Assembly: GCA_919901855.1 (NCBI GenBank)
Contig: CAKKQC010000012.1
Span: 1-64,000, forward strand
Direction of reading: 5' to 3'
From: a bacterium
GTDB lineage: Bacteria > Oederibacteriota > CAKKQC01
Length of the DNA: 64,000 bases
The notes below the pieces were generated by a model that was not told the DNA's origin, did no database searches, and saw nothing but the letters and a program-made list of their open reading frames with translations. The position numbers were made by a program, and so were the translations under genes. Each line of letters starts with the position of its first letter. Within the stretch, counting starts at the first letter, position 1. Below, piece by piece: positions 3-48,798 of the stretch.

Positions 3-2069
3 GTGGGCGGGACGACCGGGGTGGTGATCAACGGGACGAACCTCACGGCGGTCACGGCGGTCACGATCGGGGGCGCGGCGGCTACGGTTACGGGCAACAC
101 GGCGACGACGGTTACGGTGACGACGCCGGCGGGAACGGCGGGTGCGCAGGACGTGGTGGTGACCACGTGCGGCGGGCCGGTGACGAGCGTGGGCGCGTTC
201 ACGTACACGGCGGCACCGACGATCACGAGCCTGGGAACGACATGCGGGCCGGTGGCCGGCGGGACGACCGGGGTCGTGATCAACGGGACGAACCTCTCGG
301 CGGTCACGGCGGTCACGATCGGTGGGGCTGCGGCTACGGTTACGGGCAACACGGCGACGACGGTTACGGTGACGACGCCGGCGGGAACGGCGGGTGCGCA
401 GGACGTGGTGGTGACCACGTGCGGCGGGCCGGTGACGAGCGTGGGTGCATATACGTACACGGCGGCGCCGACGATCACGAGTCTGGGAACGACGTGCGGA
501 CCGGTGGCGGGCGGGACGACGGGTGTCGTGATCAACGGGACGAACCTGACCGGTGTCACTGCGGTCACGATCGGCGGGGCGGCGGCTACGGTTACGGGGA
601 ACACGGCGACGACGGTTACGGTGACGACGCCGGCGGGGACGGCGGGTGCGCAGGACGTGGTGGTGACCACGTGCGGCGGCGTCGCGACCAGCGTGGGTGC
701 ATATACGTACACGGCGGCGCCGACGATCACGAGCCTGGGGACGACCTGCGGACCGGTGGCGGGCGGGACGACGGGGGTGGTGATCAACGGGACGAACCTG
801 ACCGGTGTCACGGCGGTCACGATCGGCGGGGCGGCGGCGACGGTTACGGGCAACACGGCGACGACGGTTACGGTGACGACGCCGGCGGGAACGGCGGGTG
901 CGCAGGACGTGGTGGTGACCACGTGCGGCGGGCCGGTGACGAGCGTGGGCGCGTTCACGTACACGGCGGCACCGACGATCACGACGCTGGGAACGACGTG
1001 CGGGCCGGTGGCGGGCGGGACGACCGGGGTGATCATCAACGGGACGAACCTCACGGCGGTCACGGCGGTCACGATTGGCGGCGCGGCGGCCACGGTGACG
1101 GGCAACACGGCGACGACGGTTACGGTTACGACGCCGGCGGGGACGGCGGGTGCGCAGGACGTGGTGGTGACCACGTGCGGCGGCGCCGTGACGAGCGTGG
1201 GCGCGTTCACGTACACGGCGGTGCCCACGATCACGACGCTGGGGACGACCGTCGGACCGCTGTCGGGATGGACGCCGATGCAGATCACGGGGACGAACCT
1301 GGCGAACGTGACCACGGTGACGGTCGGGGGCGCGGCGGCGACCATCACGGGCAACACGGCGACAACGGTGACAATCCTTACGCCGTCGGGTACCGCCGGG
1401 ACCTGGGACGTGGTGGTGACCACGTGCGGTGGGGTGGCGACGGTGGTCAACGGATTCACGTATGACCCCGCGGCCAACAATCCGCCGGCGGTGTCCCTGG
1501 TTAGCCCGGTCGATGGGGGAACGTTCACGGCCCACACGACGGTTAGCCTGACGGCGAGCGCGTATGACAGCAACGGCACGATCAGCAAGGTGGAGTTCTA
1601 CGAGGGCGGCATTCTGCTGGCGACGGACACGACGGCCCCGTACACGGCATCGTGGACCGCGGGGGAGCCGGGCACGTACGCGTTGATCGTGAAGGCCTAC
1701 GATGACGTCGCCGCGGTCACGATCTCCCAGATTGCAGTCACGGTGACGCCGGCTCCGGTCGCGCCAGGGCTGGGGTTGAGGCGGTTCGCGGATCCGATCG
1801 TCGCGTACCCGAACCCGGTCGGGGGTGACGTCATGCACGTGGCGCTGAATCTCAAGGCGGACGCCGAGGTCGTGACCGTGATGGTGTACAACGCCGCGAT
1901 GCAGCTCAGCTACGAGGGCGAGTGGCGGAACGTCACGCTGGCCGACGGCGGAGTCCGAATCACGGGCCTCCAGGACTGGGCGCCCGGGGTCTACCTCCTG
2001 CGCGCGCGCGCGACCCTCGTCGGCGGTGACGTTCAGGTTCTTCCCGTCCTGAAGGTGGTGGTCAAATGA
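3..2069 (+). CDS. IPT/TIG-repeat surface protein with FlgD-like C-terminal domain (5' end outside window)
   Basis: The reading frame is open at the window edge and begins inside a repeat, so the apparent GTG at base 3 is not a start and the N-terminus is missing. Visible are one incomplete and five complete IPT/TIG immunoglobulin-like domains of 84 residues, each with a G-T-N-L core and a V-T-I-G-G-A-A-A-T strand. The first five are almost identical and the sixth is diverged. An Ig-like domain follows (about residues 490-580; [11 protein letters not shown] and [11 protein letters not shown] motifs). The last ~85 residues start with Y-P-N-P-V and end in K-V-V-V-K, resembling FlgD-like or type IX secretion C-terminal domains. 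The stop overlaps the start of the next gene (ATGA), a PorV-like barrel. I infer a secreted adhesin or surface-layer protein; partner and function are unknown. Confidence 0.85.
241..1250 (+). repeat. Tandem 252-bp coding repeats (IPT domains)
   Basis: Four consecutive copies with an exact 252-base (84-codon) period; the equivalent threonine-cysteine codons recur near 243, 495, 747 and 999, and a diverged further copy begins near 1251. The copies differ at only a few scattered positions, many synonymous. This points to recent amplification or gene conversion. The array continues left of the window. Confidence 0.9.
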
Positions 2070-3079
2070 CGCTCCGGCTGCCGGTCGCCTTCCTGGCCCT
2101 TCTTGCCGCGTCCGGCGCGAGCGCGCTGACCGAAACGCGGTCGACGGTGCTCGGACCGGGAACGGTGCGGGGGGCATTCCTCTCCCGCGGCACGAGCCCG
2201 CGGGCCGGGGGCATGGGCGAGGCGTTCGCGGCGGTGGCGGACGACGTCAGCGCGGTGGGGTGGAACCCGGCCGGGCTGGGCCAGCTAGAGTCCTTCGGCG
2301 CGGTGGCGTCGTGGGACGGCGCGGGCCAGGGGCTGGGGCTGAGCCATCTCGCGGTGGCGGCGCCGGTCGGGCCCGGCACCCTCGGGGCGAGCCTGACTGC
2401 GATGACGTATGGGAGCTTCACGTCATATAACGATCTCGGCGACCGGCTTGGCAGCGAGGGCTTCATGGATCTCGGCGTGACCGCGGCTTGGGGCATGTCC
2501 GTGGGACGGCTGATGGGTCATCCCGCCTGGGGCGGCGTATCGGCCGAGTTCGTGCGCGACGCCGCGGGCGGCACGATGGCCGGGTTCGGAGCCGGTGCAC
2601 TTCTCCCGCTCGGGCCCATTTTCCGGGTCGGGGCGTCGGTCCAGCATCTGGGTACGACGAGCGGCGGATTCTCGCTCCCGGGCCGGGCGCGTGTGGGGTT
2701 GGCAGCGAAGCTGGGCAACGGCCTGTTCGCCGGGGTCGAGGGCGCCTACGGCTTCCAGGACAAGCTCGGGACAATGGCGCTGGGGCTGGAGTGGTTGCCG
2801 GTCCGTCTCCTCGCCGTGCGCGCCGGCTACCGGCAGCCGTTCCGGACCCAGCGCCTCGAAGGGCTCACGGGGCTGACCGCGGGCGTGGGCGTGAAGTGGC
2901 GGTCGCTCGGCGTGGACTACGCCTTCCAGCCGTACGGCGACCTCGCGGTGAGCCACCGGGTGGGGCTGACCTGGACCGCCCCGGCGGCGGTTCCAGTGCA
3001 GTCGACTCCAGACGCCGGGAAGGAACCCGCCGTCGCCACTGAGCCGGCTCCGGCCGCTGCGCCCGCTACTCCCCGCTGA
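2066..3079 (+). CDS. PorV/PorQ-like outer-membrane beta-barrel protein
   Basis: A 337-residue protein with a cleavable-looking signal peptide (hydrophobic [11 protein letters not shown] near residues 10-20). The mature N-terminus contains the PorV/PorQ signature: [15 protein letters not shown] followed by W-N-P-A-G-L. Alternating amphipathic strands rich in glycine fill the rest, ending with a short Ala/Pro tail. In type IX secretion, PorV (LptO) is a barrel that binds the C-terminal signal of cargo. The ATGA overlap with the preceding repeat protein shows co-translation with that likely cargo. No type IX motor genes are in the window, so membership in that system is inference. The ATG is fixed by the overlap and the signal peptide. 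Confidence 0.8.
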
Positions 3080-5001: not shown

Positions 5002-6213
5002 GTGGACTCCCCCCCGATGATCCGCCGGGCCCTCGCCGGGGCGCTCCGCCGCGCGGCCTCGGGCTTCCGCGTCGTGAGCGTGACCGGTCCCCGCCAGTCG
5101 GGAAAGACCACGCTGGTCAGGCAGGTGTTCCCGCGGCATGCCTATGTGTCGCTCGAGGTTCCGGACGACCGTCGACAGGCGCTCGACGACCCGCGCGGGT
5201 TCCTGGCGCGGTTCCCGGGGCCGGTCATCCTGGATGAGGCCCAGCGGGCCCCCGACCTGTTCTCCTACATCCAGACCATCGTGGACGAGCATCCGCGGCC
5301 CGGCCGCTTCGTGCTCACGGGTTCGAGCAACTTCCTGCTGATGCGCACGATCACCCAGTCCCTCGCCGGACGGTGCGCCGTCCTGCATCTGCATCCGTTC
5401 TCGCGCGCGGAGCTGGAGGGACGGGCGGCCCTGGACCTCCTGACGCTGGGTCGATCCCCCGTCCGCGACGCCCGCAAGCCGCGGGCCGCGCTCGACGAGG
5501 TCCTGTTCCGGGGCGGCTACCCGCCCGTCCAGGGCCGCCGGATCGAGCCGCGGCGATGGTTCCAGTCCTACGTGGAGACCTATGTGGAGCGGGATGTGCG
5601 CCAGCTCCTGCGGGTGGGCGACCTGGACACCTTCGAGCGCTTCCTCCGGCTTGCGGCCGCGCGCTCGGGCCAGCTCCTCAACCTGTCCTCGCTGGCCGCG
5701 GATGCGGGCATCACGCATCCGACGGCCCGGGCCTGGATCTCGATCCTCCAGACGAGCTTCCTCGTGCTCCTGATGCGGCCGTACTTCCGGAACGTCGGGA
5801 AGCGCATGACCAAGTCGCCGAAGCTGTACTGGCTGGACTCGGGGCTCCTCTGCTATCTCCTCGGGATCCGCTCGCCGGCGGAGATCGCGGGCCATCCCCT
5901 GCGCGGCGCGATCTTCGAATCCTTCGTGGTATCGGAACTCGTGAAAGCCTTCACGCACCGGGGGGAGATCGCCCCGTTGGCCTTCTGGCGTGACCGGACC
6001 GGGAAGGAGATCGACGTGCTGGTCGAGTCGGCCCGCGAGCCCGTCACGATCGAAATCAAGGCCGGAAGGACGATGGCGGCCGATGCGCTGGCCAACCTCC
6101 AGTATTGGCGGTCGATGCGCGGGGAAGCGGCTGGACGTGCCGCCCTCATTTACGGCGGGGATCGGGGCTTCGTGCACCTCGGCGTCACCGTTCTGCCCTG
6201 GTGGCGGATCTGA
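5002..6213 (+). CDS. AAA-family ATPase with C-terminal DUF4143 domain
   Basis: A 403-residue P-loop protein of the AAA_14/DUF4143 family. The Walker A motif G-P-R-Q-S-G-K-T-T is at residues 29-37 and the Walker B V-I-L-D-E-A-Q near 75-81. A sensor-like L-T-G-S-S-N segment follows (~110). The C-terminal DUF4143 region ends with R-T-G-K-E-I-D-V-L-V-E and T-I-E-I-K-A-G, the acidic/lysine arrangement of a PD-(D/E)XK-like fold. The cellular role of this widespread family is poorly known; it often sits in accessory regions. The start is uncertain: GTG 5002 or ATG 5017 (residue 6 of the longer form). It is a single-gene unit, divergent from the oxidoreductase, with its own promoter and operator-like dyad. 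Confidence 0.85.
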   Translation: MDSPPMIRRALAGALRRAASGFRVVSVTGPRQSGKTTLVRQVFPRHAYVSLEVPDDRRQALDDPRGFLARFPGPVILDEAQRAPDLFSYIQTIVDEHPRPGRFVLTGSSNFLLMRTITQSLAGRCAVLHLHPFSRAELEGRAALDLLTLGRSPVRDARKPRAALDEVLFRGGYPPVQGRRIEPRRWFQSYVETYVERDVRQLLRVGDLDTFERFLRLAAARSGQLLNLSSLAADAGITHPTARAWISILQTSFLVLLMRPYFRNVGKRMTKSPKLYWLDSGLLCYLLGIRSPAEIAGHPLRGAIFESFVVSELVKAFTHRGEIAPLAFWRDRTGKEIDVLVESAREPVTIEIKAGRTMAADALANLQYWRSMRGEAAGRAALIYGGDRGFVHLGVTVLPWWRI

Positions 6214-6500: not shown

Positions 6501-9500
6501 ATGGGTAGGGGAGCTTTGTTGCACATCTCGCACGCCCTGCTGGGCCTGTGCCTGCTCGTGGCGCCCGGCTGGGTCGTGGCCGCGGATCCTGTCTGGTCGG
6601 CGCTGGCCGCGATGCCGACGGGCCGGAGCATCTTCGGGGCGGCCGTGCTGGGCGGGACGCCCTATGTCGTGGGTGGCACCACGACCGGATCGAATGCGAT
6701 CACGACCGTCGAGGCCTACGTCCCCGAAGCCAACATCTGGCTGACGAAGGTCAGCATGACCACGGGCCGGAACAACCACGCCGTTGTGGCGGTGGGATCG
6801 ACGCTCTACGCCATCGGCGGCTGGAACATCAGCAACCTTTCCTCGATGGAAGCCTACGATCCGGTGACGACCGCGTGGGCTTCGAAGGCCAGCATGGGCC
6901 AGGCCCGGACTTACTTCGCCGCGGCCGCCATTGGCGGCACGATCTATGTCATGGGCGGATGGCAGGGCGGGTACACGTACCTGAACACCCTCGAGGCCTA
7001 TGACCGAAACACGAACACGTGGACGACAAAGGCGCCCATGCCCGTGCCCCGGGGGGGGCATGCGGCCGTGGCCATCGGCGGCACGATCTACGTGATGGGC
7101 GGGCACTGCCAGGATGCCGTCTCGGGCACCACGTACTCCAGCGTCATTGCCTACGATCCGGCGACAAACACGTGGACGTCGAAGGCGGACATGCCCACCC
7201 GGCGCGACACGTTCCAGGCGGCCCGCGTGGGGGCCTTGATCGTCGCGGTCGGGGGCAGCACCCCAACCAGCACGGCGACCGCGCTGGTTGAAGCCTACGA
7301 CCCCGCGACCGACACATGGGTGACCATGACGGACATGCCCACGGCGCGGAACTACCCCGCCGTGGCCGTGATTGGCGCCACGCTGTACGTGGTCGGGGGC
7401 TACCAGAACATGCAGACGGCGGAGGCCGGGTGTCTGACGGCAGTCTCGATTGCGCCCAACACGGCGCCGGGGGCGCCGTCGGCCGTGAGCGGGCCGGGGA
7501 ACGGGAAGAAGAACTACAGCTACACGTACACGGTGGCGGCGACCGATCCGGACGGTGACACGGTCAAGTACGGGTGGGACTGGGACGGGGATGGGACGGT
7601 GGACGAGTGGTCGTCGCTGGTGGCGAGCGGGACGCCAGACGTGCGGAGCCATAGCTGGTCGTCAGCCGGGACTAACAACGTCAAGGTAAAGACGCAGGAC
7701 GCGAACGCTGCCGAGTCCGGCTGGTCCACGGCCCGGAGCGTCGTGGTCGCGAACGGCGGTCCGGACATCTCGTGGACGGCCGCCGCATCAATGCCGGGCA
7801 CGCGGTCTTCGCCGGCCGTTGCGGTGGTGAACGGCCTCGTGTACTGCGCGGGGGGCGGTGACGGGGGCTATTTAGCGACGATGGTGGTCCTCGATCCGGG
7901 CACCGATTCTTGGACAACGAAAGCGAGCATGCCGACGGCTCGGGTCGCGCCGATGGGGGCGGCGGTGGGGAGCACGGTCTTCGTGATCGGGGGCTACGTC
8001 GGTGGGAATACCTACATCGGGACGGTCGAAGCCTACAACACGGTGACTAACACATGGACGACGCGGACCAGTCTACCCTACGCGAGCGCCTGGGGTGGAG
8101 CCGTCGCCATGAACGGATTGATCTATGTCGTCGGGGGGCAGAACTTTCCCGCCGGTGCCCATGCAACGGTGTCGGCGTACGATCCGGTGGCGGATAGCTG
8201 GTCTACGAAGGCGAGCCTGCCGACCGCGATCTCGGCCCACGCCGTGGTGGCCGTGGGGGCCACGATCTACTCCATTGGGGGATCCGGCCTGGCTACTGTC
8301 CATGCATATGACCCTACGACGAATACATGGGTGACGAAAGCGCCCTTGTCGCGGGGACTTAATGACGCGACAGCCGTCGTCGTGGGCGGGACGATCTACG
8401 TGTGTGGCGGCGATGATGGTGTTTCGGCGACCACGCTGGTGGAGGCGTACGATACGGCGACCAACACATGGACGATGATGGCAAGTCTGCCGACGGCGCG
8501 GACAAATGCAGGAGGCGCGGTGATCGGCGACTCGATTTACGTCATCGGTGGGGGGAACGTGACGATCCTCTCGACGGTGGTGTCCGGTCTCGTCTACGGC
8601 GCGGCGGGGGGGAACACGGCGCCGGGGGCGCCGTCGGCGGTGAGCGGGCCGGGGCACGGGAAGAAGAACTACAGCTACACGTACACGGTGGCGGCGACCG
8701 ATCCGGACGGTGACACGGTCAAGTACGGGTGGGACTGGGACGGGGATGGGACGGTGGACGAGTGGTCGTCGCTGGTGGCGAGCGGGACGCCAGACGTGCG
8801 GAGCCATAGCTGGTCGTCAGCCGGGACTAACAACGTCAAGGTGAAGACCGAGGACGCGAATGGCGCCCAGTCCGGCTGGTCGACGGCGCGGAGCGTGGTC
8901 GTAACGAACGGGGGCGGCGACATCTCGTGGACGTCCGCCGCGCCGATGCCGACGCCGCGGCAGGGACCGATGGCTGGCGCGGTGGGCAACATGATCTATG
9001 TGTTCGGAGGCAACCTGAACTCAGCAAGCACCACCCAGAGCTTGGTGGAGGCGTACGACGCGGGGACGGACACTTGGACCACCAAGGCGAACATGTCGGT
9101 TGTGAGAATACAGGCGGGGGTCGCCGTGCTTGGGGGCACGGTGTACGCCATCAGTGGTGGAGGGCCTAGTGATGGGGTGCCCGTGGCCTCCGTTGAAGCA
9201 TACGACCCTACCACGAACACGTGGACCGCGAGAGCCAACGTGAACACGGGGCGGCTCGCCCCTGCGGCGGCGGCGGTCGGCGGAACGATCTACCTGTGTG
9301 GCGGGATCATCGGCGGCGGTGTCATCTTCGCGCCTGTGGAGGCCTATGATCCGGCCACGAATACCTGGGTGACGAAGACCGCGATGCCCACGCCGCGGTA
9401 TGGACTGGCGGCCGTGGTGGTCTGCGGCACGGTCTACACAATCGGCGGATGGAACAGCTACCCAGGGCCGGGTGCCGTGAGCGGAGCCGTTGAGGCCTAC

Positions 9501-11624
9501 TATCCCGCCACGAACACCTGGGTGACGAAGGCCAGCATGCCGACGGTTCGGGCAAACATGGCCGCCACGGCAGTGGTGGGGGGTACCATCTACGTCTGCA
9601 GCGGAGGCAACGATTCGGGAAATGTCGCGACCGTGGAGGCCTACGACACGGCGACGAACACATGGACGACCATGGCGCCGATCACGGTTGCACGGAACGC
9701 CGCGGCGGGGGTTGCGGTGGGCGACTCGCTCTTCGTGTTCGGCGGCAACAGCGGAGGGCTGACGGCATCGGTTGAGGCCGGGTTGACGTTTGGCGCGGCC
9801 GGGAACACGGCGCCGGGGGCGCCGTCGGCAGTGAGCGGGCCGGGGAATGGGAAGAAGAACTACAGCTACACGTACACGGTGTCGGCGACGGATCCGGACG
9901 GGGACCAGGTCAAATACGGCTGGGATTGGGATGGGAATGGGACGGTGGACGAGTGGTCGGTAATGGGAGCGAGTGGGACGCCAGACGTGCGGAGCCATAG
10001 CTGGGCGTCGGCCTCGACCAACAACGTCAAGGTGAAGACCGAGGACGCGAATGGCGCTCAGTCCGGCTGGTCCACGGCGCGGACCGTCGTGATCACGAAC
10101 GGCGGAAGCGACATCTCGTGGACGGCGGGGCCCACTTTGTCAGGGTCGCGGAACGGCGCTGCCGTCGCTGTGGTTAACGGGCTTGTATACAGCGTGGGAG
10201 GTCATGACGGGATCTCCTACCTGTCGACGGTGGAGGTCCTTGATCCAGGCACCGACACATGGACGGCGAAAGCGAGCCTGTCCGCAGGTCGAGCCTCGAT
10301 GGGTGTCGCAGTCGTGGGGGCCACGATCTTCGTCATCGGCGGGTATTCGGGAGCGTCTCTGGTGACCGTGGAGGCGTACAACACGGCTACGAACACGTGG
10401 ACGTCGCGGGCGAACCTGCCGGCCCCGCGCTATCAAACCGGTGCTGCCACCGTGAATGGCCTAGTCTATGCCATAGGTGGACAGGATGGGGCCTCGGGTT
10501 ATCCGACGGTATTTGCCTACGATCCGGTGGCCGATAGTTGGTCCACGAAGGCGAATATGCCGACGGCGCGCTCTGAACCCCACGTCGCCGCGGTGGGCGG
10601 CACGATCTACGCGATTGCTGGCGACGGCTTGGCCGTGGTCGAGGCCTACGATACGGCGACGAACTCGTGGACAACGAAGGCGAACTTGCCGGGGGGGGGC
10701 CGGTTCTCTCCGACTGCAGTTGCCGTGGGCGGGACGATCTTCGTGTGCGGTGGCAGCGATGGCGTGACGGCCACAGGGACGGTGGACTCGTACGACACGG
10801 CGACCAACACGTGGACGGTGATGGCAACCATGCCGATGGCGCGGGCACTGGCGGGAGGCGCAGTGGTCGGGGACTTGATCTACCTCGTCGGGGGTTGGGA
10901 CGTGACCACTCTCTCGACGGTGGAGTCCGGTCTCGTATTCGGCGCGCCCGCTGGCGCGCCGACGACCCCTGCCGCGCACCTGACGGGTACCGTCGCGGTC
11001 ACGCCGGAGGCGCCGGTGGTCCGGGCGCCGGTGACGGTCCGGTTCAATGTCAGAAATGACGGCACCGGAGACGCCACGGGGGTCACGGCCGCCCTGACGT
11101 TCACCGCGGGGACATGCCCGGTCACCGGGCCGTCGCCGGCGGGGCCGGTGACGATCGCGGCGGGTGCGACGCAGGAGTTCACCTGGACCTTCACCCCGAC
11201 GGGCGGGGCCGTGGCGTTCACGGTTGCGGCCGTGGGGACGGACGCCCTGACGGCGCTGGCGGTCTCGGGCAGTGCCACGCAATCCGTGACCATCAAGACT
11301 GAGGCGAAGGACAAGGTCCTCAAGGGCAAAATCCTCGTGGCGCCCAACGTCCTGGACCTCTCGACTCCGGGGAGCAGCCTCACCTTCGCCATGAAGGGGG
11401 ATCCCGGCGTGGAGGTCGAGGTCATGATCTTCTCCCTCCACGGAGCGTACGTGGGCTCCCTCAAGGGGACGGCCGGCGCCGATGGGGTCACCGCGGTCAC
11501 GCTCGCGGGGGGCCGGGTCGAGGGCAAGGTCCTGGCCACGGGCGTCTACTGGGCGCTGGTCAAGGGCGGAGGCGTCACCGATAAGCGTCAGTTCGCGGTT
11601 GTGGCGCGCAAGGGGGGCAAGTAG
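6501..11624 (+). CDS. Giant Kelch/PKD-like modular surface protein
   Basis: A 1,707-residue secreted protein. A signal peptide (residues 1-28, ending V-V-A-A-D-P) precedes four blocks of Kelch repeats (~29-315, 430-700, 815-1095, 1209-1485). Typical repeat motifs are V-G-G-T-I-Y-V-x-G-G, V-E-A-Y-D and T-N-T-W-T. The blocks are separated by three near-identical PKD/Ig-like domains (~319-428, 704-814, 1101-1207) with the core D-P-D-G-D-x-V-K-Y-G-W-D-W-D. A CARDB-like domain (~1493-1600; P-V-T-V-R-F-N-V-R-N-D-G) and a FlgD-like C-terminal domain follow. Kelch blades form beta-propellers that usually bind proteins or sugars. The stop codon abuts the next ATG, a barrel-CsgG fusion, so the two are co-transcribed. 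I read it as a surface protein exported with that barrel's help. A TTG at 6519 after AGGGGAG is an alternative start, but ATG 6501 keeps the positive n-region. Confidence 0.85.
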   Translation: MGRGALLHISHALLGLCLLVAPGWVVAADPVWSALAAMPTGRSIFGAAVLGGTPYVVGGTTTGSNAITTVEAYVPEANIWLTKVSMTTGRNNHAVVAVGSTLYAIGGWNISNLSSMEAYDPVTTAWASKASMGQARTYFAAAAIGGTIYVMGGWQGGYTYLNTLEAYDRNTNTWTTKAPMPVPRGGHAAVAIGGTIYVMGGHCQDAVSGTTYSSVIAYDPATNTWTSKADMPTRRDTFQAARVGALIVAVGGSTPTSTATALVEAYDPATDTWVTMTDMPTARNYPAVAVIGATLYVVGGYQNMQTAEAGCLTAVSIAPNTAPGAPSAVSGPGNGKKNYSYTYTVAATDPDGDTVKYGWDWDGDGTVDEWSSLVASGTPDVRSHSWSSAGTNNVKVKTQDANAAESGWSTARSVVVANGGPDISWTAAASMPGTRSSPAVAVVNGLVYCAGGGDGGYLATMVVLDPGTDSWTTKASMPTARVAPMGAAVGSTVFVIGGYVGGNTYIGTVEAYNTVTNTWTTRTSLPYASAWGGAVAMNGLIYVVGGQNFPAGAHATVSAYDPVADSWSTKASLPTAISAHAVVAVGATIYSIGGSGLATVHAYDPTTNTWVTKAPLSRGLNDATAVVVGGTIYVCGGDDGVSATTLVEAYDTATNTWTMMASLPTARTNAGGAVIGDSIYVIGGGNVTILSTVVSGLVYGAAGGNTAPGAPSAVSGPGHGKKNYSYTYTVAATDPDGDTVKYGWDWDGDGTVDEWSSLVASGTPDVRSHSWSSAGTNNVKVKTEDANGAQSGWSTARSVVVTNGGGDISWTSAAPMPTPRQGPMAGAVGNMIYVFGGNLNSASTTQSLVEAYDAGTDTWTTKANMSVVRIQAGVAVLGGTVYAISGGGPSDGVPVASVEAYDPTTNTWTARANVNTGRLAPAAAAVGGTIYLCGGIIGGGVIFAPVEAYDPATNTWVTKTAMPTPRYGLAAVVVCGTVYTIGGWNSYPGPGAVSGAVEAYYPATNTWVTKASMPTVRANMAATAVVGGTIYVCSGGNDSGNVATVEAYDTATNTWTTMAPITVARNAAAGVAVGDSLFVFGGNSGGLTASVEAGLTFGAAGNTAPGAPSAVSGPGNGKKNYSYTYTVSATDPDGDQVKYGWDWDGNGTVDEWSVMGASGTPDVRSHSWASASTNNVKVKTEDANGAQSGWSTARTVVITNGGSDISWTAGPTLSGSRNGAAVAVVNGLVYSVGGHDGISYLSTVEVLDPGTDTWTAKASLSAGRASMGVAVVGATIFVIGGYSGASLVTVEAYNTATNTWTSRANLPAPRYQTGAATVNGLVYAIGGQDGASGYPTVFAYDPVADSWSTKANMPTARSEPHVAAVGGTIYAIAGDGLAVVEAYDTATNSWTTKANLPGGGRFSPTAVAVGGTIFVCGGSDGVTATGTVDSYDTATNTWTVMATMPMARALAGGAVVGDLIYLVGGWDVTTLSTVESGLVFGAPAGAPTTPAAHLTGTVAVTPEAPVVRAPVTVRFNVRNDGTGDATGVTAALTFTAGTCPVTGPSPAGPVTIAAGATQEFTWTFTPTGGAVAFTVAAVGTDALTALAVSGSATQSVTIKTEAKDKVLKGKILVAPNVLDLSTPGSSLTFAMKGDPGVEVEVMIFSLHGAYVGSLKGTAGADGVTAVTLAGGRVEGKVLATGVYWALVKGGGVTDKRQFAVVARKGGK
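7458..7786 (+). repeat. Near-identical PKD-module DNA repeat, copy 1
   Basis: First of three copies of a ~330-bp coding module. Copies 1 and 2 (8613-8942) are identical over long stretches of their first ~240 bases, including synonymous positions, which suggests recent duplication or gene conversion. Confidence 0.85.
8613..8942 (+). repeat. Near-identical PKD-module DNA repeat, copy 2
   Basis: Second copy, offset 1,155 bp from copy 1. Its end carries an E-D-A-N-G-A-Q variant that copy 3 shares, so the copies look like mosaics. Confidence 0.85.
9804..10123 (+). repeat. PKD-module DNA repeat, copy 3 (more diverged)
   Basis: Third copy, offset 1,191 bp from copy 2. Its middle part is more diverged (V-M-G-A-S-G-T in place of S-L-V-A-S-G-T), but the flanks remain very similar to copies 1 and 2. 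Confidence 0.8.
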
Positions 11625-13043
11625 ATGCGGCGGATCGGTCGGCTCGCGGCCCTCGTCATGGCGCCGTCCGTCGCCCTGTCCGCCGCTACGGGGGCGGGAT
11701 TCCTGAACGTGCCGCTGAGCGCCCAGCAGGTGGGGATGGGCGAGGTCAGCGTTGGGGGCGGGGACGTGTCGCGGGCGTGGAGCAATCCGTCACTGTTGTC
11801 CGCGCAGTCGACGCGGGGCGAGATCGGCCTGAGCGGGGGCTCGTACTTCGACGGCGGGCATTCGGGGATGGGCGCGTGCGCGGGCTGGCTACTGGGGTCC
11901 CGGTGGTCGGTGGGGCTGGGCTTCTCGTCGGAGTCCGTGTCGTTCTCCGAGGTGGATGCCTTCGGGGATCCCGTGGGGACCTCGGTCGCGCAGAGCCAGA
12001 TGGCCATCGTGGCCATGGGCGCCGTGCGCACGGGACCGGCCAGTATCGGGATCGCGGTCAAGAGCATCTCCGACACGACCGCCAAGAACAGCGCGTCGGC
12101 CGTGGGCGCGGATGCCGGCGTCTCGGTGGAGCTGGACGGGTTCCTGGCGGGCGCCGCGGTGCGCAACCTGGGGGCGGGATTGCGGACGGCGACGGCCGGC
12201 GCCGAGGGCGGCGAGAGTCTGCCGATGGAGGTGCGCGGCGGCGTTGCGTACCGGATCGCGCCGATGGGCCTGCTGGCGGGCGTCGAATACGCCACTGCGG
12301 ACACCGTCGGCAGGATCGGCTTGGGGGCCGAGTGGTGGATCAACAAGATGTTCGCCGTCCGGGCGGGAGTGGCCGGGCTGGGCGCCGTCAACGGACAGCG
12401 CATCACGGCGGGGCTGTCGGCGCGGCTCGCCGGGATCGGCGTCGACTATGCCGCGGCGACGCACGTGCTGGGGCTGACGCACCAGGTCGGGGTCAGCTAC
12501 GGCTTCGGCGGGCCGGCGCCGGTGCCCGTGGTGACGGCGGCGGAGGCTCCCGTCGAGGAGGAGGTGGCGGCGACACCGGAGCCGGCCCCGGTGCCCGTGC
12601 CCGTGGTAGCGGCCGCGCCGGTGCCCGCGAAGCGGACCTCGGGCCTGTTGAACATGGCCGTCTCCGAGCTGATCTCGCAGGGCGTCTCGGCCAGTGACTC
12701 GGCCGTCATCTCCGACATGCTCCGCGCCGAACTCGTCAAGACGAAGAGGTTCAACATCATCGAGAAGGCGAACATGGACAAGATCCTGGCCGAGCAGGCG
12801 TTCCAGCAGTCCGGTTGCACTTCGGAGGAATGCGCGGTCAAGCTGGGCAAACTGCTCAACGTGCACCGCATGATCGTGGGCTCGTTCGGCAAGCTCATGG
12901 ACAAGTACTTCGTCAGCCTGCGCGTGGTGAACGTCGAGACCGGGGCCGTCTTGTTCGCGGATTCCGCCAAGGGGCGCACGGTCGAGGACATCGAGACGGG
13001 CATCCAGCAGCTCGCCCGCAAGATCGGCAAAGAGGTCAGATAG
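11625..13043 (+). CDS. PorV-like barrel fused to a CsgG/FlgO-like domain
   Basis: 472 residues with a signal peptide (~1-24). The N-terminal ~300 residues are PorV/PorQ-like: Q-Q-V-G-M-G-E-V-S-V-G-G-G-D-V-S-R-A-W-S-N-P followed by glycine-rich beta strands. A Pro/Ala/Val/Glu linker (~305-340) leads to a ~130-residue C-terminal domain beginning N-M-A-V-S-E-L. That domain has the CsgG/FlgO/LpoB-like pattern: D-M-L-R-A-E-L, F-N-I-I-E-K-A-N-M-D-K-I-L-A-E-Q and V-H-R-M-I-V-G-S. CsgG-type domains sit in the periplasm or form outer-membrane secretion channels. The ATG directly follows the Kelch gene stop, so the pair forms one cassette. The domain fusion is unusual; the periplasmic domain may dock export machinery or cargo, which is inference. 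Confidence 0.8.
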   Translation: MRRIGRLAALVMAPSVALSAATGAGFLNVPLSAQQVGMGEVSVGGGDVSRAWSNPSLLSAQSTRGEIGLSGGSYFDGGHSGMGACAGWLLGSRWSVGLGFSSESVSFSEVDAFGDPVGTSVAQSQMAIVAMGAVRTGPASIGIAVKSISDTTAKNSASAVGADAGVSVELDGFLAGAAVRNLGAGLRTATAGAEGGESLPMEVRGGVAYRIAPMGLLAGVEYATADTVGRIGLGAEWWINKMFAVRAGVAGLGAVNGQRITAGLSARLAGIGVDYAAATHVLGLTHQVGVSYGFGGPAPVPVVTAAEAPVEEEVAATPEPAPVPVPVVAAAPVPAKRTSGLLNMAVSELISQGVSASDSAVISDMLRAELVKTKRFNIIEKANMDKILAEQAFQQSGCTSEECAVKLGKLLNVHRMIVGSFGKLMDKYFVSLRVVNVETGAVLFADSAKGRTVEDIETGIQQLARKIGKEVR

Positions 13044-43193: not shown

Positions 43194-46100
43194 ATGAGGC
43201 GGTTCTTCCTGTCGGCTCTCCTGGTCTGCGCGGTGGCTCCGCCTGCCGCGGCCGTCTGTGTGCCGGATCTGACGTTGCACATTCGGAATCCTGAGCCGCT
43301 GTACGTAATTGGCGGGGACATTCAGCTCTGGCGATTCGCGTTCAGCAACTCGAGCATGGAGACGGCGTACAACCTCACGATCACGGAGCAGGCGGGCTCG
43401 TTCGATCAGCGGACCTACGCCGCGCCATCGCTAAGCGTGACGCTCGCGGGGGGCGGGACGGTGACATCGAGCTGGGCCACGGACCTCGCGGGGCCGTGGA
43501 CGGACGGCGAGCCGGTGGATGGAACGGGCGCCCCGCTGTACCTGCGCTGGGTGGTCTCGTCCCTTCCGCCGGGGGGAAGCGGCACGCTCTCGTACCGTAC
43601 GCTGACTGCGCCCGGCCCGGAATCGCTCCTGGTGACGGTGTCCACGGCCACCTTGTCGTGCGATCCGGCATCGACGAGCGGTGCGGCGCTGTCGTATTCC
43701 GACACCTCGACCGGCAAGCGCATCGAGCCGCCGCTCATGGCTCTCAAGCTCTACGACGGTTCGGGGAGTGAATTGAATCCGATTTCCTTGGACATGGCAT
43801 ATGCTATCGCCGTAGACGGGAGTGGGAACGTGGTGGTGGCGGGATTCGAGATCGGGGCACTTGGCGGGATGAACTGGCGGGTGCAGAAGTACGACGCAGG
43901 GCTGACGGTCGTCTTGGCCTCGACCGACTACAGCGGACCGGGGAACAACATGGACATCCCCCAGTCGGTTGCCGTCGATGGGAGCGGGAATGTGGTAGTG
44001 GCCGGGTGGGAAGTGGGAGCGGTCGGCGGGGAGAACTGGCGGGTGCGCAAGTATGACGCTACGCTCACTACACTTCTGGCCTCGACTGACTTCAACGGCT
44101 CCGGTAATGGTAACGACCGGTCCCAAGCCGTCGCCTTGGACGGGAGCGGAAACGTCGTGGTGGCGGGGTACGAGACTGGTATCACCGGTGGGAAGAACTG
44201 GCGCATCCGGAAGTACAACGCCTCGTTGACGACACTGCTGGCGACAACCGACTACAACGGCCCTGCGGATGGCATCGACAAGGCCAATGGAGTCGCTGTA
44301 GACCGAAACGGCGATGTGGTGGTGGTGGGGGACGAGGAGGCGGCACTGGGAGTGTCCAATTGGCGAGTTCGCAAATATGACTCGACGTTGACGGCGCTCC
44401 TGGCATCGACCAGCTACGACGGGTCTGGACATAACTATGATTCAGCCCGAGCTGTCGCGGTGGACCTAAACGGGAATGTGGTCGTCGCGGGGTTCGAGTT
44501 TGCCTTCGGGAGTCTGTATGACTGGCGGTTGCGGAAGTATGACGGTACGCTGGCAAACCTGTTGGCTTCGGCTTCCTATGACGGGCCGAGCAACAGCGAT
44601 GACGAGGCCAATGCCGTCGCCGTGGATGTGAACGGGAACGTGGTCGTGGCGGGATTCGAGACAGCTTCAGGGGGTTATGATTGGCGCGTGCGCAAGTACG
44701 ACTCGGCGCTGAATCTGGTGGATTCGGTCAATCACGACGGGGTGGCGGATGGCGACGATTATCTTCGCGGGCTGGCGACCTGTGGCACCGGCACGGTCTA
44801 TGTGGCGGGATCGGAAACCGTTCGGCACAATCTGGACGACTTTGCCGTGTGCCGGTATCACTTGGCGCAGTTCGACCCGCCGTCCGTTCCACTGGGGCTG
44901 ACGGCGACCGGGTATGCAGGACATGTCGGACTCGAGTGGAGTCCTTCGGCGCCGGGGACCCGGGGCGTGGCTGGCTATCGAATCTTCCGTCAGACCTTCG
45001 CGGGAGTTACCGAGGGCAGTCTTCTTGTGCAGGTGGCTGGTGCCTCGGTTTCGACGTTCACCGACTCCGCAGTCGTGCCGGGTGTTGCGTACTTCTACCG
45101 GGTTCTGGCGGTGGACGTGGCGGGTGCGGAGTCCATGATCTCCATGGAGGACTCGGCGGTGCCGGCCTGTGCGGTTTCACCATGGACCCCGCGGGCGGCG
45201 GTGCCGGCGGGGCGGATGGGGGCGGCGGGGATAGGGGTGGGCGGGACCGTGTACGTCGCGGGGGGATACGACGGGTCGTACCTGGCCCGGATCGACGGGT
45301 ACAACCCCAACTACGGCACCTGGACGCACATCGGCGACATGCCGACGGCGCGATACGGGCTCGGGGTCGCCCGGTTCGGCGGGTTCCTCTGCTTCTTCGG
45401 CGGGAGCAACGGCGGCGGGGTCACGGCCGTCACCGAGATGTGGGACCCGGTCGCGAACACGTGGTGGACGAAGGCGGCGATGCCGACGGCGCGGTACGCG
45501 CCGGGGGTGGCGGCGGCGGGGGGAAGTGCGTACGTCATGGGCGGCGACAACGGGAGCACGGTCGGCGTGGTCGAGGCCTACGACATGATGTTCGACGCTT
45601 GGGCGACGAAGGCGCCGCTGCCGACGCCGCGGTCCGAACTCGGCGCCGCCGCCCTGAACGGCCTCATCTACGCGGTCGGGGGCACGAACGGCGGGGGACC
45701 GATGGCCGTGGTCGAGGCGTACAATCCCGCCACCAACACCTGGTCCACCAAGGCCCCCATGAATGTCCCGCGGTTCGGGCTCGGGGTCGTCGCCGTGGGC
45801 GGGTCGCTGTACGCGGTCGGGGGCGACAACGCGGGCAACCGGGCCACGGTCGAGGCCTACGACCCCGCCACGAACTCGTGGGTCCTGCTCTGTGGGCTTA
45901 CGACGGGCCGGTCGTCCCTCGCGGTCGCCGACGTGGGGGGAACCGTCTACGCGATCGGCGGGTGGGGTCCCGGCTACCTCAGTTCCGTGGAAGCCGCAGT
46001 CTTCCCGAAGGGGCCCGCCGAGCCCCGGCTATACGTGTCGAAGGTCGGGGACAAGGGCAGCGGGCCGTGCGGGACCGCGGTCACGTACGATGTCACGGTC

Positions 46101-47489
46101 GCCTACCCGCCGATCGAGGACAGCCTCTTCCAGTGCGCGGACGACCAACCGGCAACGAGCGTGGTCCTGACGGACGCGATCCCGGCGGGGATGACGTACG
46201 TGCCGGGGTCCCTCAAACGGTCCACGGACAACGGGACGTCGTTCGGGGCGCTGACGGACGCCGCGGACGGCGATGCGGGCGAGGTCGCTGCGGGCACGGT
46301 CACGGTCCGGCTCGGGACGATCGCCGAAGGCGACGGGGACTGGAACTGCAATCTCGCCGGAGGCCAGGTCGTGCGGTTCACGGCCTCGCGCACGGGGCTC
46401 GTTGCGGCCACGATCTCGAACACGGTCTTCGTGAACTATGCCGATGGAAAGGGCGCGGCCCAGCCCGTCGTGCTCTCGTCCGCGGACTTCACCGGGGCGG
46501 GGTGTCCGCCGCCGCCCCCTCCGCCGGCGGCTCTGGCCGCCTGGATGGACATGTCGTCAGTCGTGCCCATGGGAACGTCGTTCACGGCCACGGTCTGGGT
46601 CGCCAACACGGGCGGTGTGTCGGCTACGGTGACCGGGCTCGCGCTCGGCGCCATCGGGAGCCCGCCGGGCACGGTCGGGGCGCCGGGGCCGGTCATCCCG
46701 GCCCTGCCGGTCGTGATCGCACCGCTGACGACGACGTCATTCCTCTGGTCGACGACCGCGCTCGCGTGCGGGAACGCGATCCTGACCGTGACGGTGACCG
46801 GGAGCGAGGGCGGGACCGGAAGTCCGCTCGGGCCGGTCGTGGTCGGGCGGCTCGTGACGGTGTCGGGCGTGCCGGCGGTCGTCCTCATCTCGGCGTCGCC
46901 GCCCGCGGTGCGGGCGGGCTCTACGGTCTCGATCACGGTCACGGTCTACGATTCCTGCTCGCCCGCTAATGCCCTGAACGGGGTGGCCGTGACGCTGGTC
47001 GTGATCGCGGGGGGCGGGACCGTGTCGTCCGCCGCGGGGGTCACCAACATCTTCGGCCGGCTGGTGACGACACTGACGACGGGGACCGCCGGGGGGACCA
47101 ACTCGGTTTGGGCAGGCGTGTCGGCGGGGACGTCCCCGGCGGGGACCGCGTACGTGACCGCGACCCTCGCGCCGCCGGTCCCGCCCGGGCCCCCCCTGCT
47201 GACGTCGCCCGGGGGCGCGACGGACAAGAACATCTTCGAGCCGTCAAAGGGCGACATCGTCCTGGCCCGCATCAACCCCCGGGACGACTCCGGGATCATA
47301 GTCCGCATCTACACGGCCTCCGGCCGGTTGGTCCGGACGCTCCGGAACCTCGAGCCCGCCGGCTCCGGCCAGTACGTGGTCCGGTGGGACGGCCGGACGG
47401 AGGACGAGTTCGTCGTGGCCCGCGGAGTGTATCTGGTGCATATCCTGGGCGGGGGGTTGAACGAGGTCGTGAAGGTGGTAGTAAAATGA
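43194..47489 (+). CDS. Modular surface protein: SBBP-like propeller, FN3, Kelch, DUF11-like, FlgD-like C-terminus
   Basis: 1,431 residues. Signal peptide (1-20, ending P-A-A-A) and a DUF11-like N-terminal domain (~25-165). Six 54-residue beta-propeller repeats (~182-555) carry A-V-A-V-D-G-S-G-N-V-V-V-A-G and N-W-R-V-R-K-Y-D. Next come a fibronectin III domain (~562-659), Kelch repeats (~662-939), a DUF11-like domain (~943-1100; V-V-L-T-D-A-I-P-A-G-M-T-Y-V-P-G), a CARDB-like domain (~1112-1222) and a Big-1-like domain (~1225-1332). The C-terminus is FlgD-like (~1340-1431; I-V-R-I-Y-T-A-S-G-R-L-V-R-T-L) and ends K-V-V-V-K, like the first protein of the window. A barrel-TPR gene follows 7 bases after the stop. 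Likely exported to the cell surface; ligand unknown. Confidence 0.85.
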   Translation: MRRFFLSALLVCAVAPPAAAVCVPDLTLHIRNPEPLYVIGGDIQLWRFAFSNSSMETAYNLTITEQAGSFDQRTYAAPSLSVTLAGGGTVTSSWATDLAGPWTDGEPVDGTGAPLYLRWVVSSLPPGGSGTLSYRTLTAPGPESLLVTVSTATLSCDPASTSGAALSYSDTSTGKRIEPPLMALKLYDGSGSELNPISLDMAYAIAVDGSGNVVVAGFEIGALGGMNWRVQKYDAGLTVVLASTDYSGPGNNMDIPQSVAVDGSGNVVVAGWEVGAVGGENWRVRKYDATLTTLLASTDFNGSGNGNDRSQAVALDGSGNVVVAGYETGITGGKNWRIRKYNASLTTLLATTDYNGPADGIDKANGVAVDRNGDVVVVGDEEAALGVSNWRVRKYDSTLTALLASTSYDGSGHNYDSARAVAVDLNGNVVVAGFEFAFGSLYDWRLRKYDGTLANLLASASYDGPSNSDDEANAVAVDVNGNVVVAGFETASGGYDWRVRKYDSALNLVDSVNHDGVADGDDYLRGLATCGTGTVYVAGSETVRHNLDDFAVCRYHLAQFDPPSVPLGLTATGYAGHVGLEWSPSAPGTRGVAGYRIFRQTFAGVTEGSLLVQVAGASVSTFTDSAVVPGVAYFYRVLAVDVAGAESMISMEDSAVPACAVSPWTPRAAVPAGRMGAAGIGVGGTVYVAGGYDGSYLARIDGYNPNYGTWTHIGDMPTARYGLGVARFGGFLCFFGGSNGGGVTAVTEMWDPVANTWWTKAAMPTARYAPGVAAAGGSAYVMGGDNGSTVGVVEAYDMMFDAWATKAPLPTPRSELGAAALNGLIYAVGGTNGGGPMAVVEAYNPATNTWSTKAPMNVPRFGLGVVAVGGSLYAVGGDNAGNRATVEAYDPATNSWVLLCGLTTGRSSLAVADVGGTVYAIGGWGPGYLSSVEAAVFPKGPAEPRLYVSKVGDKGSGPCGTAVTYDVTVAYPPIEDSLFQCADDQPATSVVLTDAIPAGMTYVPGSLKRSTDNGTSFGALTDAADGDAGEVAAGTVTVRLGTIAEGDGDWNCNLAGGQVVRFTASRTGLVAATISNTVFVNYADGKGAAQPVVLSSADFTGAGCPPPPPPPAALAAWMDMSSVVPMGTSFTATVWVANTGGVSATVTGLALGAIGSPPGTVGAPGPVIPALPVVIAPLTTTSFLWSTTALACGNAILTVTVTGSEGGTGSPLGPVVVGRLVTVSGVPAVVLISASPPAVRAGSTVSITVTVYDSCSPANALNGVAVTLVVIAGGGTVSSAAGVTNIFGRLVTTLTTGTAGGTNSVWAGVSAGTSPAGTAYVTATLAPPVPPGPPLLTSPGGATDKNIFEPSKGDIVLARINPRDDSGIIVRIYTASGRLVRTLRNLEPAGSGQYVVRWDGRTEDEFVVARGVYLVHILGGGLNEVVKVVVK
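43800..44770 (+). repeat. Six 162-bp coding repeats (beta-propeller blades)
   Basis: The G-N-V-V-V codons recur at about 43823, 43985, 44147, 44309, 44471 and 44633, an exact 162-base (54-codon) period. Copies are clearly more diverged than the 252-bp IPT repeats, so this array is older or under stronger diversifying pressure. Confidence 0.85.
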
Positions 47490-47496
47490 GGGTGAA

Positions 47497-48798
47497 GTGA
47501 CGAACGTGCTGGTGGGATTTCTGGTCACCGTCCGGCTGGCGCAGGCCGCCGGCGGCACCGCCCTCGACGCCTTCAACTTCGTGACGGGGGCGCGGGCGGC
47601 GGGAATGGGCGGCGCGGCCGTCGCGGTCGTCTCGGACGTCACCGCCCTCCAGTGGAACCCCGCCGGGCTCGCGCGGTCGTCCGAGATCTCGACCACGCTC
47701 TCGCACCTGGTCTGGGTCGCGGACATCAACTACTCGTACGCCGGCGTCGCGGTGCCGGTGCCCGCGGGTTGGGCGGGCCTGCCCGTGAACGGGACGGCGG
47801 GCTTCTCGGTCCAGATGTTCAACTACGGCTCGATCGAGAGCACGCGCGGGCTCGCGGCGGCCGTGGACGCCTCCGACCTCGGGTTCACGGCCGGCGGGGC
47901 TGTGCGGGTCGCGGAGGCCGTGTCGGGCGGGGCGGCGGTCAAGGTCTTTCACCACGCCCTCGGCGGGGCCGGGGTGTCCGAGGCCGCGATCGACGCGGGG
48001 GCCGCGTACGAGGCGGTGCCGGACGCGCTCTCGATCGGGCTCGTGGTCCAGAACCTCGGATACTCGGGGTCGCTCGAGGGACGGACGCCGCCGCTCCCGG
48101 CCTCGATGAAGCTCGGGTTCGGGTTCGGCTTCGAGGTCACCAGAGAGCCGCTCCCGATCGAGGGGGAGGCGCCGAAGTGGCATCCGAAAGTGCGCGCCCT
48201 GCTCTCGGGCGACATCATTGCGTACCAGCGCGGCGAGCCCGTGAACTACACGATGGGCGCCGAAGCGAACCTCAACGGCATCCTCTACGGGCGCGTGGGG
48301 CTCCAGAGCGCGATCAAGGCCGCGGGCGCGAGCGCCGGGCTCTCGGGCGGCGTCGGGCTCAGCTTCTACGGCTTCCGGCTCGACTACGCCTACGGGTCGG
48401 TGGGCGATCTCGGGCACGCGCAGTACGTGAGCCTCAGTTGGTCTCCGTGGCACCGCAATAGCGGTGCCCCCGCAGTTTCGCCGAAGGGCGAGACTGCGCC
48501 GCCACCGCAGGGCACGGCGGCGGCCCCCGCCCTGCTGCCGGGCATCCCGACGGCGGAGGACGCCTACCGCTCCGGCGCCGCGCTGTACGGAGAGCAGAAG
48601 TACGCGGAGGCCGCCGGGCAGGCGCAGTCGGCGCTGGACGCGGACCCGAACTACTGGGAGGCGTGGCAACTGCTCGGCAACTGCCGGTTCTCGCTCAACG
48701 ACCGCGCGGGCGCGCTCGCGGCGTACGGAAAGTCGCTCGCCCTGCACCCGGACAATCCATCCCTGAAGGCGTTCGTGGACCAGTTGGGGGCGCCTTGA
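47497..48798 (+). CDS. PorV-like outer-membrane barrel with C-terminal TPR
   Basis: 433 residues from a GTG start. A short signal peptide (V-L-V-G-F-L-V-T-V-R-L-A-Q-A-A) precedes the PorV/PorQ signature F-V-T-G-A-R-A-A-G-M-G-G-A-A-V-A-V-V-S-D-V-T-A-L, given here in part, and Q-W-N-P-A-G-L-A. About 300 residues of glycine-rich beta strands follow. The last ~90 residues contain two TPR-like repeats (A-Y-R-S-G-A-A-L-Y-G-E-Q-K-Y-A-E-A-A; Y-W-E-A-W-Q-L-L-G-N-C). It sits 7 bases after the propeller/Kelch protein, repeating the cargo-then-barrel order seen at 2066 and 11625. The periplasmic TPR may recruit a partner; this is inference. Confidence 0.8.
   Translation: MTNVLVGFLVTVRLAQAAGGTALDAFNFVTGARAAGMGGAAVAVVSDVTALQWNPAGLARSSEISTTLSHLVWVADINYSYAGVAVPVPAGWAGLPVNGTAGFSVQMFNYGSIESTRGLAAAVDASDLGFTAGGAVRVAEAVSGGAAVKVFHHALGGAGVSEAAIDAGAAYEAVPDALSIGLVVQNLGYSGSLEGRTPPLPASMKLGFGFGFEVTREPLPIEGEAPKWHPKVRALLSGDIIAYQRGEPVNYTMGAEANLNGILYGRVGLQSAIKAAGASAGLSGGVGLSFYGFRLDYAYGSVGDLGHAQYVSLSWSPWHRNSGAPAVSPKGETAPPPQGTAAAPALLPGIPTAEDAYRSGAALYGEQKYAEAAGQAQSALDADPNYWEAWQLLGNCRFSLNDRAGALAAYGKSLALHPDNPSLKAFVDQLGAP

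Follow-up and report, generated by a model that had tools for sequence, protein, structure and literature searches.

The window, a 64-kb stretch of DNA, contains a gene whose product combines in a single chain an outer-membrane barrel related to PorV, a disordered Pro/Ala-rich linker and a CsgG/LpoB-like domain (Table 1). We consider it probable that this fusion serves a type IX-like secretion system (T9SS) as a dedicated carrier and anchor and would collect the Kelch protein encoded next to it by way of the C-terminal domain (CTD) of the latter. The proposal builds on computed observations, namely the architecture of the protein, the folds of its parts, the pairing of the genes, the co-variation of barrels and CTDs, the repeated exchange of tails and the presence of SprA in the genome; support is good for the architecture and the pairing.

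The initial annotation had recognized a PorV/PorQ-type barrel, a Pro/Ala linker and a CsgG-like domain on one chain, encoded immediately 3' of a probable Kelch cargo. The architecture is borne out by NCBIfam (NF033709), Pfam and AlphaFold2, and the gene order by the ORF positions, since the first base of the fusion ORF directly follows the stop codon of the 1,707-residue Kelch ORF. The AlphaFold2 model (mean pLDDT 83), for which relatives from named MAGs were used as input, consists of plug helices and 14 strands (residues 63-297), a linker with a pLDDT of about 50, and a compact beta-alpha-beta domain. The fusion is no artefact of assembly or frame, because 15 genes for a barrel with a CsgG-like domain occur in the same genome and the combination is found again in Elusimicrobia MAGs and in a sister genus. 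A phmmer search of the whole protein against the PDB sequences gave no useful match. Within the open-licence literature, papers that name PorV and CsgG together deal with other subjects, and those on PorV with FlgD-type CTDs, or on T9SS in Elusimicrobia or Coatesbacteria, do not describe the architecture, a weak negative in view of the open-licence scope of these searches.

Table 1. Carrier genes, probable cargos and their parts in the 64-kb window
Feature	Positions	Strand	Remarks
CTD of third cargo	1752..2066	+	Gene cut by contig start; TIGR04183 21.9 bits, just under cut-off 23
Third carrier, PorV-family barrel without folded tail	2066..3079	+	4-base overlap with cargo gene
Probable cargo of the fusion carrier, Kelch protein	6501..11624	+	1,707 residues; 23 Kelch repeats and PKD-like modules
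CTD of Kelch cargo	11307..11621	+	Ig-like beta sandwich, class A of the genome's CTDs; pLDDT 81, eight short strands
Fusion of PorV-like barrel, Pro/Ala linker and CsgG/LpoB-like domain	11625..13043	+	472 aa
Fusion, probable Sec signal peptide	11625..11699	+	About residues 1-25; basic N-terminus, hydrophobic stretch, ALSAATGA; by eye from sequence
Fusion, plug helices at the N-terminus and barrel of 14 strands, FadL/PorV type	11718..12515	+	Residues 32-297; AlphaFold2, Foldseek
Fusion, disordered Pro/Ala-rich linker	12516..12647	+	Residues 298-341; pLDDT 44-60 at 301-340
Fusion, CsgG/LpoB-like alpha/beta domain, predicted periplasmic	12648..13037	+	Residues 342-471; Pfam, Foldseek
Fusion, Cys398 and Cys403	12816..12833	+	Conserved Cys pair in tail
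Second cargo, Kelch protein	43194..47489	+	1,431 residues
CTD of second cargo	47172..47486	+	TIGR04183 passed, 26.4 bits, cut-off 23
Second carrier, PorV-family barrel with TPR tail	47497..48798	+	NF033709 128 bits, cut-off passed

Residues 22-294 of the fusion match the NCBIfam PorV family model (PorV_fam, NF033709) with an E-value of 2e-19 and a score of 70.4 bits, under the cut-off of 90 bits; the T9SS PorV equivalog (NF033710) gives 12.3 bits, far under its cut-off of 250. In fold, according to AlphaFold2 and Foldseek, the protein has the PorV/PorQ features of a 14-stranded FadL-type barrel with an N-terminal plug. Among PDB entries, Foldseek ranks first PorV from the T9SS translocon, in the substrate-bound (8gl6_F, E 1.1e-12) and then the free form (6h3i_F, E 3.5e-10), and FadL proteins (E. 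coli FadL and TodX) come after them. An outer-membrane barrel whose strands are even in number has both ends of its chain on the periplasmic side, and the even strand count thus places the tail of the fusion, by prediction, in the periplasm.

The host genome (4.68 Mb, 93% complete) shares its family with Candidatus Coatesbacteria nzgw597, the nearest named genome, and contains 66 stretches that match PorV_fam. We examined 61 barrel genes, located in the stretches around each of these matches or at loci found via the fusion itself; C15:35678, which spans two stretches, and C81:3039, cut by a contig end, were left out of the counts, and for fusions with a higher-scoring antisense frame the positions were taken from the search coordinates. 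At least 15 of the paralogues pass the PorV_fam cut-off, including the second carrier of the window. The barrel is followed by nothing in 25 of the 61 genes, by a CsgG-like domain in 15, by FN3 in six, by TPR in five and by Pro-rich stretches in four; rarer additions are a domain without a Pfam match, a FlgD-like domain and OmpA (two genes each, with FN3 in one of the OmpA cases). The linkers are short in the five fusions of class A2. The combination is no isolated case: this genome contains it 15 times, and in the Elusimicrobia group at least 12 of the 100 genomes sampled have fusions. Two other arrangements were observed. C32:41735 (L106) codes for a single chain in which FN3 domains and a pair of OmpA domains follow the barrel, with a second barrel gene immediately after it. 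C28:144978 (L029) and C22:34345 (L085), the barrels of which are of different classes, share at their C-termini a domain of about 100 residues ('DGLFPVRDE...YKGDGTEVP') without a Pfam match, which we regard as another exchanged tail.

The CTD of the Kelch cargo is matched weakly by FlgD_ig (E 0.009) and is not matched by TIGR04183, the T9SS type A sorting domain, which the cargo of the second carrier passes. Its model finds only generic beta sandwiches in the PDB, none under an E-value of 0.001. By hhalign, the class of this CTD (class A) matches class C, which holds a TIGR04183-positive member, at 98.6%; the cargo of the fusion is thus linked to the T9SS CTDs solely through class C. The body of the same cargo contains, between its propellers, three copies of a 300-base PKD-like module (7458-7757, 8613-8912 and 9804-10103), the latter two 95% and 88% identical to the first, indicative of gene conversion or of a recent duplication. 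A short way upstream of this cargo gene, positions 5002-6213 code for an AAA ATPase with DUF4143, of a common and scattered family, which shows no sign of belonging to the pair. The window contains three carriers in all: the bare barrel, the CsgG fusion and the TPR fusion. The bare-barrel gene is near-identical to that at C37:1189 (L078), and the cargo gene of each is cut by a contig end; the two stem from a recent duplication, the probable source of the break in the assembly.

In 52 of the 61 cases the same-strand gene before the barrel ends in a FlgD/T9SS-type Ig-like CTD, and this holds for all 15 CsgG-tailed fusions of the genome. The pairs are closely spaced (50 of the 52 lie no more than 50 bases apart, and 29 overlap by 4 bases with the start codons as chosen), so that the fusion and its paralogues share with the PorP/SprF-like carriers the location beside a cognate CTD cargo. 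The distances among the barrels are correlated with those among the CTDs (Mantel r 0.69 over the 52 pairs, p 0.0002; null mean 0, sd 0.03), and remain so when only the 15 fusions with a CsgG tail are compared (r 0.66, p 0.0002). The correlation of barrels with cargo bodies is 0.20; the partial correlation of barrels with CTDs, given body similarity, is 0.69, and over the 941 pairs without detectable homology between the cargo bodies r is 0.62 (p 0.0005). The cargo bodies therefore do not account for the co-variation of barrels and CTDs. Moreover, five groups of barrels match five classes of CTDs, the latter being mutually related by profile comparison. A cargo body that is swapped while CTD and barrel stay paired is what a recognition pair predicts.

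It could be argued that barrel and CTD genes were merely co-inherited by duplication of operons, with one common carrier for all cargos and the paralogues otherwise employed. Operon duplication also yields correlated distances, and in the Bacteroidota, as exemplified by Flavobacterium, a single PorV is common to all Type A CTDs (PMC12618676). Part of the observed co-variation can come from entire operons that were duplicated long ago, and such duplication with later replacement of the bodies would be expected to leave the same trace in the correlations. As an explanation of the whole pattern, however, simple co-inheritance is unlikely, given that the correlation persists among cargos without body homology and that the five barrel classes accompany five CTD classes.

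The tail was assessed by sequence profiles and by structure. Its 135 C-terminal residues pass the Pfam cut-offs of both CsgG (PF03783; E 9e-13, 42.5-48.4 bits, cut-off 20.8) and LpoB (PF13036; E 3e-8, 30.5-34.1 bits, cut-off 22.3), whereas FlgO (PF17680), which had been proposed at the outset beside CsgG, was rejected, scoring 12.2 bits with the whole fusion and 15.4 bits (E 0.018) with the tail, under a cut-off of 22.6. TolB_N is likewise under its cut-off (E 0.003). The CsgG match spans positions 39-97 of the 210 in the profile, and the modelled tail, of some 130 residues, contains three short consecutive strands without long membrane hairpins; by this partial match and the AlphaFold2 model, it is not a full-length CsgG with pore-forming hairpins. 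By Foldseek the tail matches LpoB (2mii, E 8e-6; 4q6z, E 1.7e-5; TM 0.69 by target). Cys398 and Cys403 are invariant in all 15 fusions of the genome and in all 17 rows of a wider alignment that includes non-barrel proteins of other phyla, although they are missing from some more distant fusions. A link to a gliding track through this Cys pair, as in SprF, was considered and set aside, since the pair is equally fixed in the non-barrel relatives. The CsgG-like domain occurs in about 12 further proteins of the genome in unrelated contexts, for example in a PEGA-type lipoprotein, after a beta-propeller or ahead of small barrel-like domains (L034, L036, L038, L039, L040), and it is N-terminal in barrel-less proteins of Spirochaetes, Fibrobacteres and others.

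The resemblance to LpoB raises the question of a working Lpo-type activator, in which the barrel would replace the lipid anchor and the tail would stimulate a peptidoglycan synthase, thereby coupling surface display to wall growth. In structure the tail comes closest to LpoB, the Pfam LpoB cut-off is passed, and in LpoB, too, a disordered linker precedes the domain. We nonetheless judge such an activity improbable: the LpoB equivalog (TIGR02722) scores 25 bits, far under its cut-off of 110.55, the domain recurs elsewhere in the genome as described above, and TPR or OmpA domains occupy the same place in other carriers, which favours docking over the action of one enzyme.

A FadL-like barrel for the uptake of hydrophobic compounds, similar to PorV through the common FadL fold only, is very unlikely; E. 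coli FadL and TodX do come next in the fold search, but PorV matches better in sequence and structure alike, and neither the coupling of 52 of the 61 barrels to CTD genes nor their co-variation with the CTDs is expected of a nutrient channel. Least credible of all is an export channel for curli-type fibres or polysaccharide, formed by the CsgG-like part with the barrel as an accessory, since CsgG is indeed the top sequence family of the tail but the domain is short, lacks the hairpins of the pore and finds LpoB rather than CsgG among its top structures, while the 14-stranded barrel is complete alone and 46 carriers of the genome have no CsgG-like domain. A curli-type pore was accordingly rejected, and the tie to fibre export drawn in the initial annotation is not supported; of that annotation, the architecture and the adjacent cargo were retained and the FlgO membership was not.

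The CsgG-like tail has been joined repeatedly to distinct barrel lineages, those of Elusimicrobia included. On a tree of the barrels alone, to which fusions from Elusimicrobia and from another family of the phylum were added (a quick method, with SH-aLRT support only), the CsgG label requires eight changes, at least four of which are forced by strongly supported branches. The median identity among the fusions is 25% for the barrels and 49% for the tails, and in 222 of 231 comparisons the tails resemble each other more closely than the barrels do. The clearest exchange in the genome itself is C34:49378, in which a class B barrel (28% identical to that of the window) bears a CsgG tail (55%). The survey of other genomes proposed in the initial annotation located the fusion in a sister genus, in family f3 and in Elusimicrobia. 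In the phylum, all 45 of 45 genomes contain matches to parts of the fusion model, and complete fusions were seen in the family of the host genome and in f3; among the matches listed, at least 12 of the 100 genomes sampled from the phylum whose MAGs are named Elusimicrobia have full-length fusions. Where the flank is readable, a CTD gene precedes 13 of the 16 distinct fusions outside the host genome. In another family of the phylum (L118, G009), one barrel carries two CsgG-like domains in tandem.

The genome codes for the SprA/Sov translocon (TIGR04189, 263.5 bits, cut-off 200), in a cluster with the order SprA, 709-residue CTD protein and PorV-family barrel, and each of the 18 genomes tested, of which 10 belong to the phylum, has SprA matches. 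A search for the PorU sortase (NF033707) matched the CTD part alone in this 93% complete genome; its positive control in Fibrobacterota (G051) gave an E-value of 1e-95, and it replaced a search with Pfam Peptidase_C25 that had no control. PorP/SprF (TIGR03519) has no match at an E-value of 0.001 in the whole genome, and the same search is positive in Elusimicrobia (G046). GldL and GldM gave no match either, in searches in which no positive control was matched.

From homology and genome structure, we propose the following course for CTD binding, anchoring and docking in the periplasm on a partner. Sec would export both the Kelch protein and the barrel, and the SprA translocon would pass the Kelch protein, the CTD of which may then be handed to the extracellular loops of the PorV-like barrel made from the neighbouring gene. 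The precedent is Flavobacterium, where PorV shuts the lateral gate of SprA and grips the CTD within the pore by its extracellular loops; the complex then departs laterally (PMC10994853). Since no PorU was found, the CTD probably remains bound to the barrel, which would double as a surface anchor, a role already suggested for PorP/SprF and their type B CTDs. Linker and CsgG/LpoB-like domain together would project into the periplasm and tether the barrel to a fixed partner; TPR domains or OmpA domains (a peptidoglycan-binding family) occupy the same place in other carriers of the genome. A swappable periplasmic dock of the carrier is thus our best reading of the tail, and its partner could be a wall synthase, peptidoglycan or a scaffold in the periplasm. 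Several observations count against the carrier reading: the PorV-model scores under the cut-offs, the lack of a TIGR04183 match or a PDB hit for the CTD of the Kelch cargo, the short linkers of class A2, the searches for GldL and GldM without a match or a positive control, and the share of operon duplication in the co-variation. The presence of about 60 carriers, most of them encoded behind a probable cargo, suggests a little-explored, one-carrier-per-cargo version of T9SS. More tentatively, and with some doubt, we envisage a sortase-free branch of T9SS in which the PorV-family carrier of each cargo stays as its anchor and the interchangeable tail sets where or how firmly the cargo is fixed.

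Like PorV of the Bacteroidota, the fusion has a 14-stranded FadL-type barrel with PorV as its best structural match, in a genome with SprA and CTD-bearing partners; unlike PorV, it scores under the cut-offs of the PorV models and has some 60 paralogues, most of them beside a cargo and some with a fused periplasmic domain, in a genome in which no PorU was found. The location of the carrier gene directly after the cargo gene recalls SprB-SprF and PG1035-PorP (PMC12618676, PMC9143113), as would cognate specificity and the role of the carrier as surface anchor, both of which we infer for the fusion. Type B CTD cargos are encoded alongside their cognate PorP/SprF barrels, which also act as anchors (PMC12618676). 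Those barrels, however, belong to another family (TIGR03519), and the CTDs of the present genome are FlgD/Type A-like. PorE, a lipoprotein with TPR, beta-propeller and OmpA-like peptidoglycan-binding parts, holds PorP to peptidoglycan in the PorP-PorE-PG1035 complex (PMC9143113). PorE resembles the present tails as a periplasmic anchor of a carrier-cargo complex and in its TPR and OmpA domains, but it is a separate protein in the Bacteroidota, whereas the anchor-like CsgG/LpoB-like, TPR and OmpA domains are here fused to the barrel. With the LpoB/CsgG/TolB-N superfamily the tail shares fold and sequence profile, as opposed to its barrel in place of a lipid anchor, its lack of the CsgG hairpins and the Cys pair conserved in most members. 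The twin-cysteine periplasmic tail of SprF is bound to GldK of the gliding track (PMC12635249); in both cases a C-terminal tail of the carrier would link it to a periplasmic structure, but that of SprF is short and bonds to the track through Cys-X-Cys, whereas the present tail is a folded domain whose Cys pair is found also in non-barrel relatives.

Cognate carriers have so far been known in the Bacteroidota only as PorP/SprF-type barrels, about 10 per genome and for Type B CTDs, with PorV as the general carrier. What is new here is the PorV family itself with about 60 members, paired with cargos and fused to a periplasmic anchor, in a candidate phylum. The conserved motifs of CTDs have been called necessary, but not sufficient, for recognition by the carrier (PMC12618676); the 60 or so natural carrier-CTD pairs of this one genome make CTD recognition directly accessible to co-variation analysis, and the exchange of tails provides a natural test of what holds a secreted protein in place. 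If the sortase-free branch proposed above is real, it would constitute a modular address system that arises from the exchange of domains.
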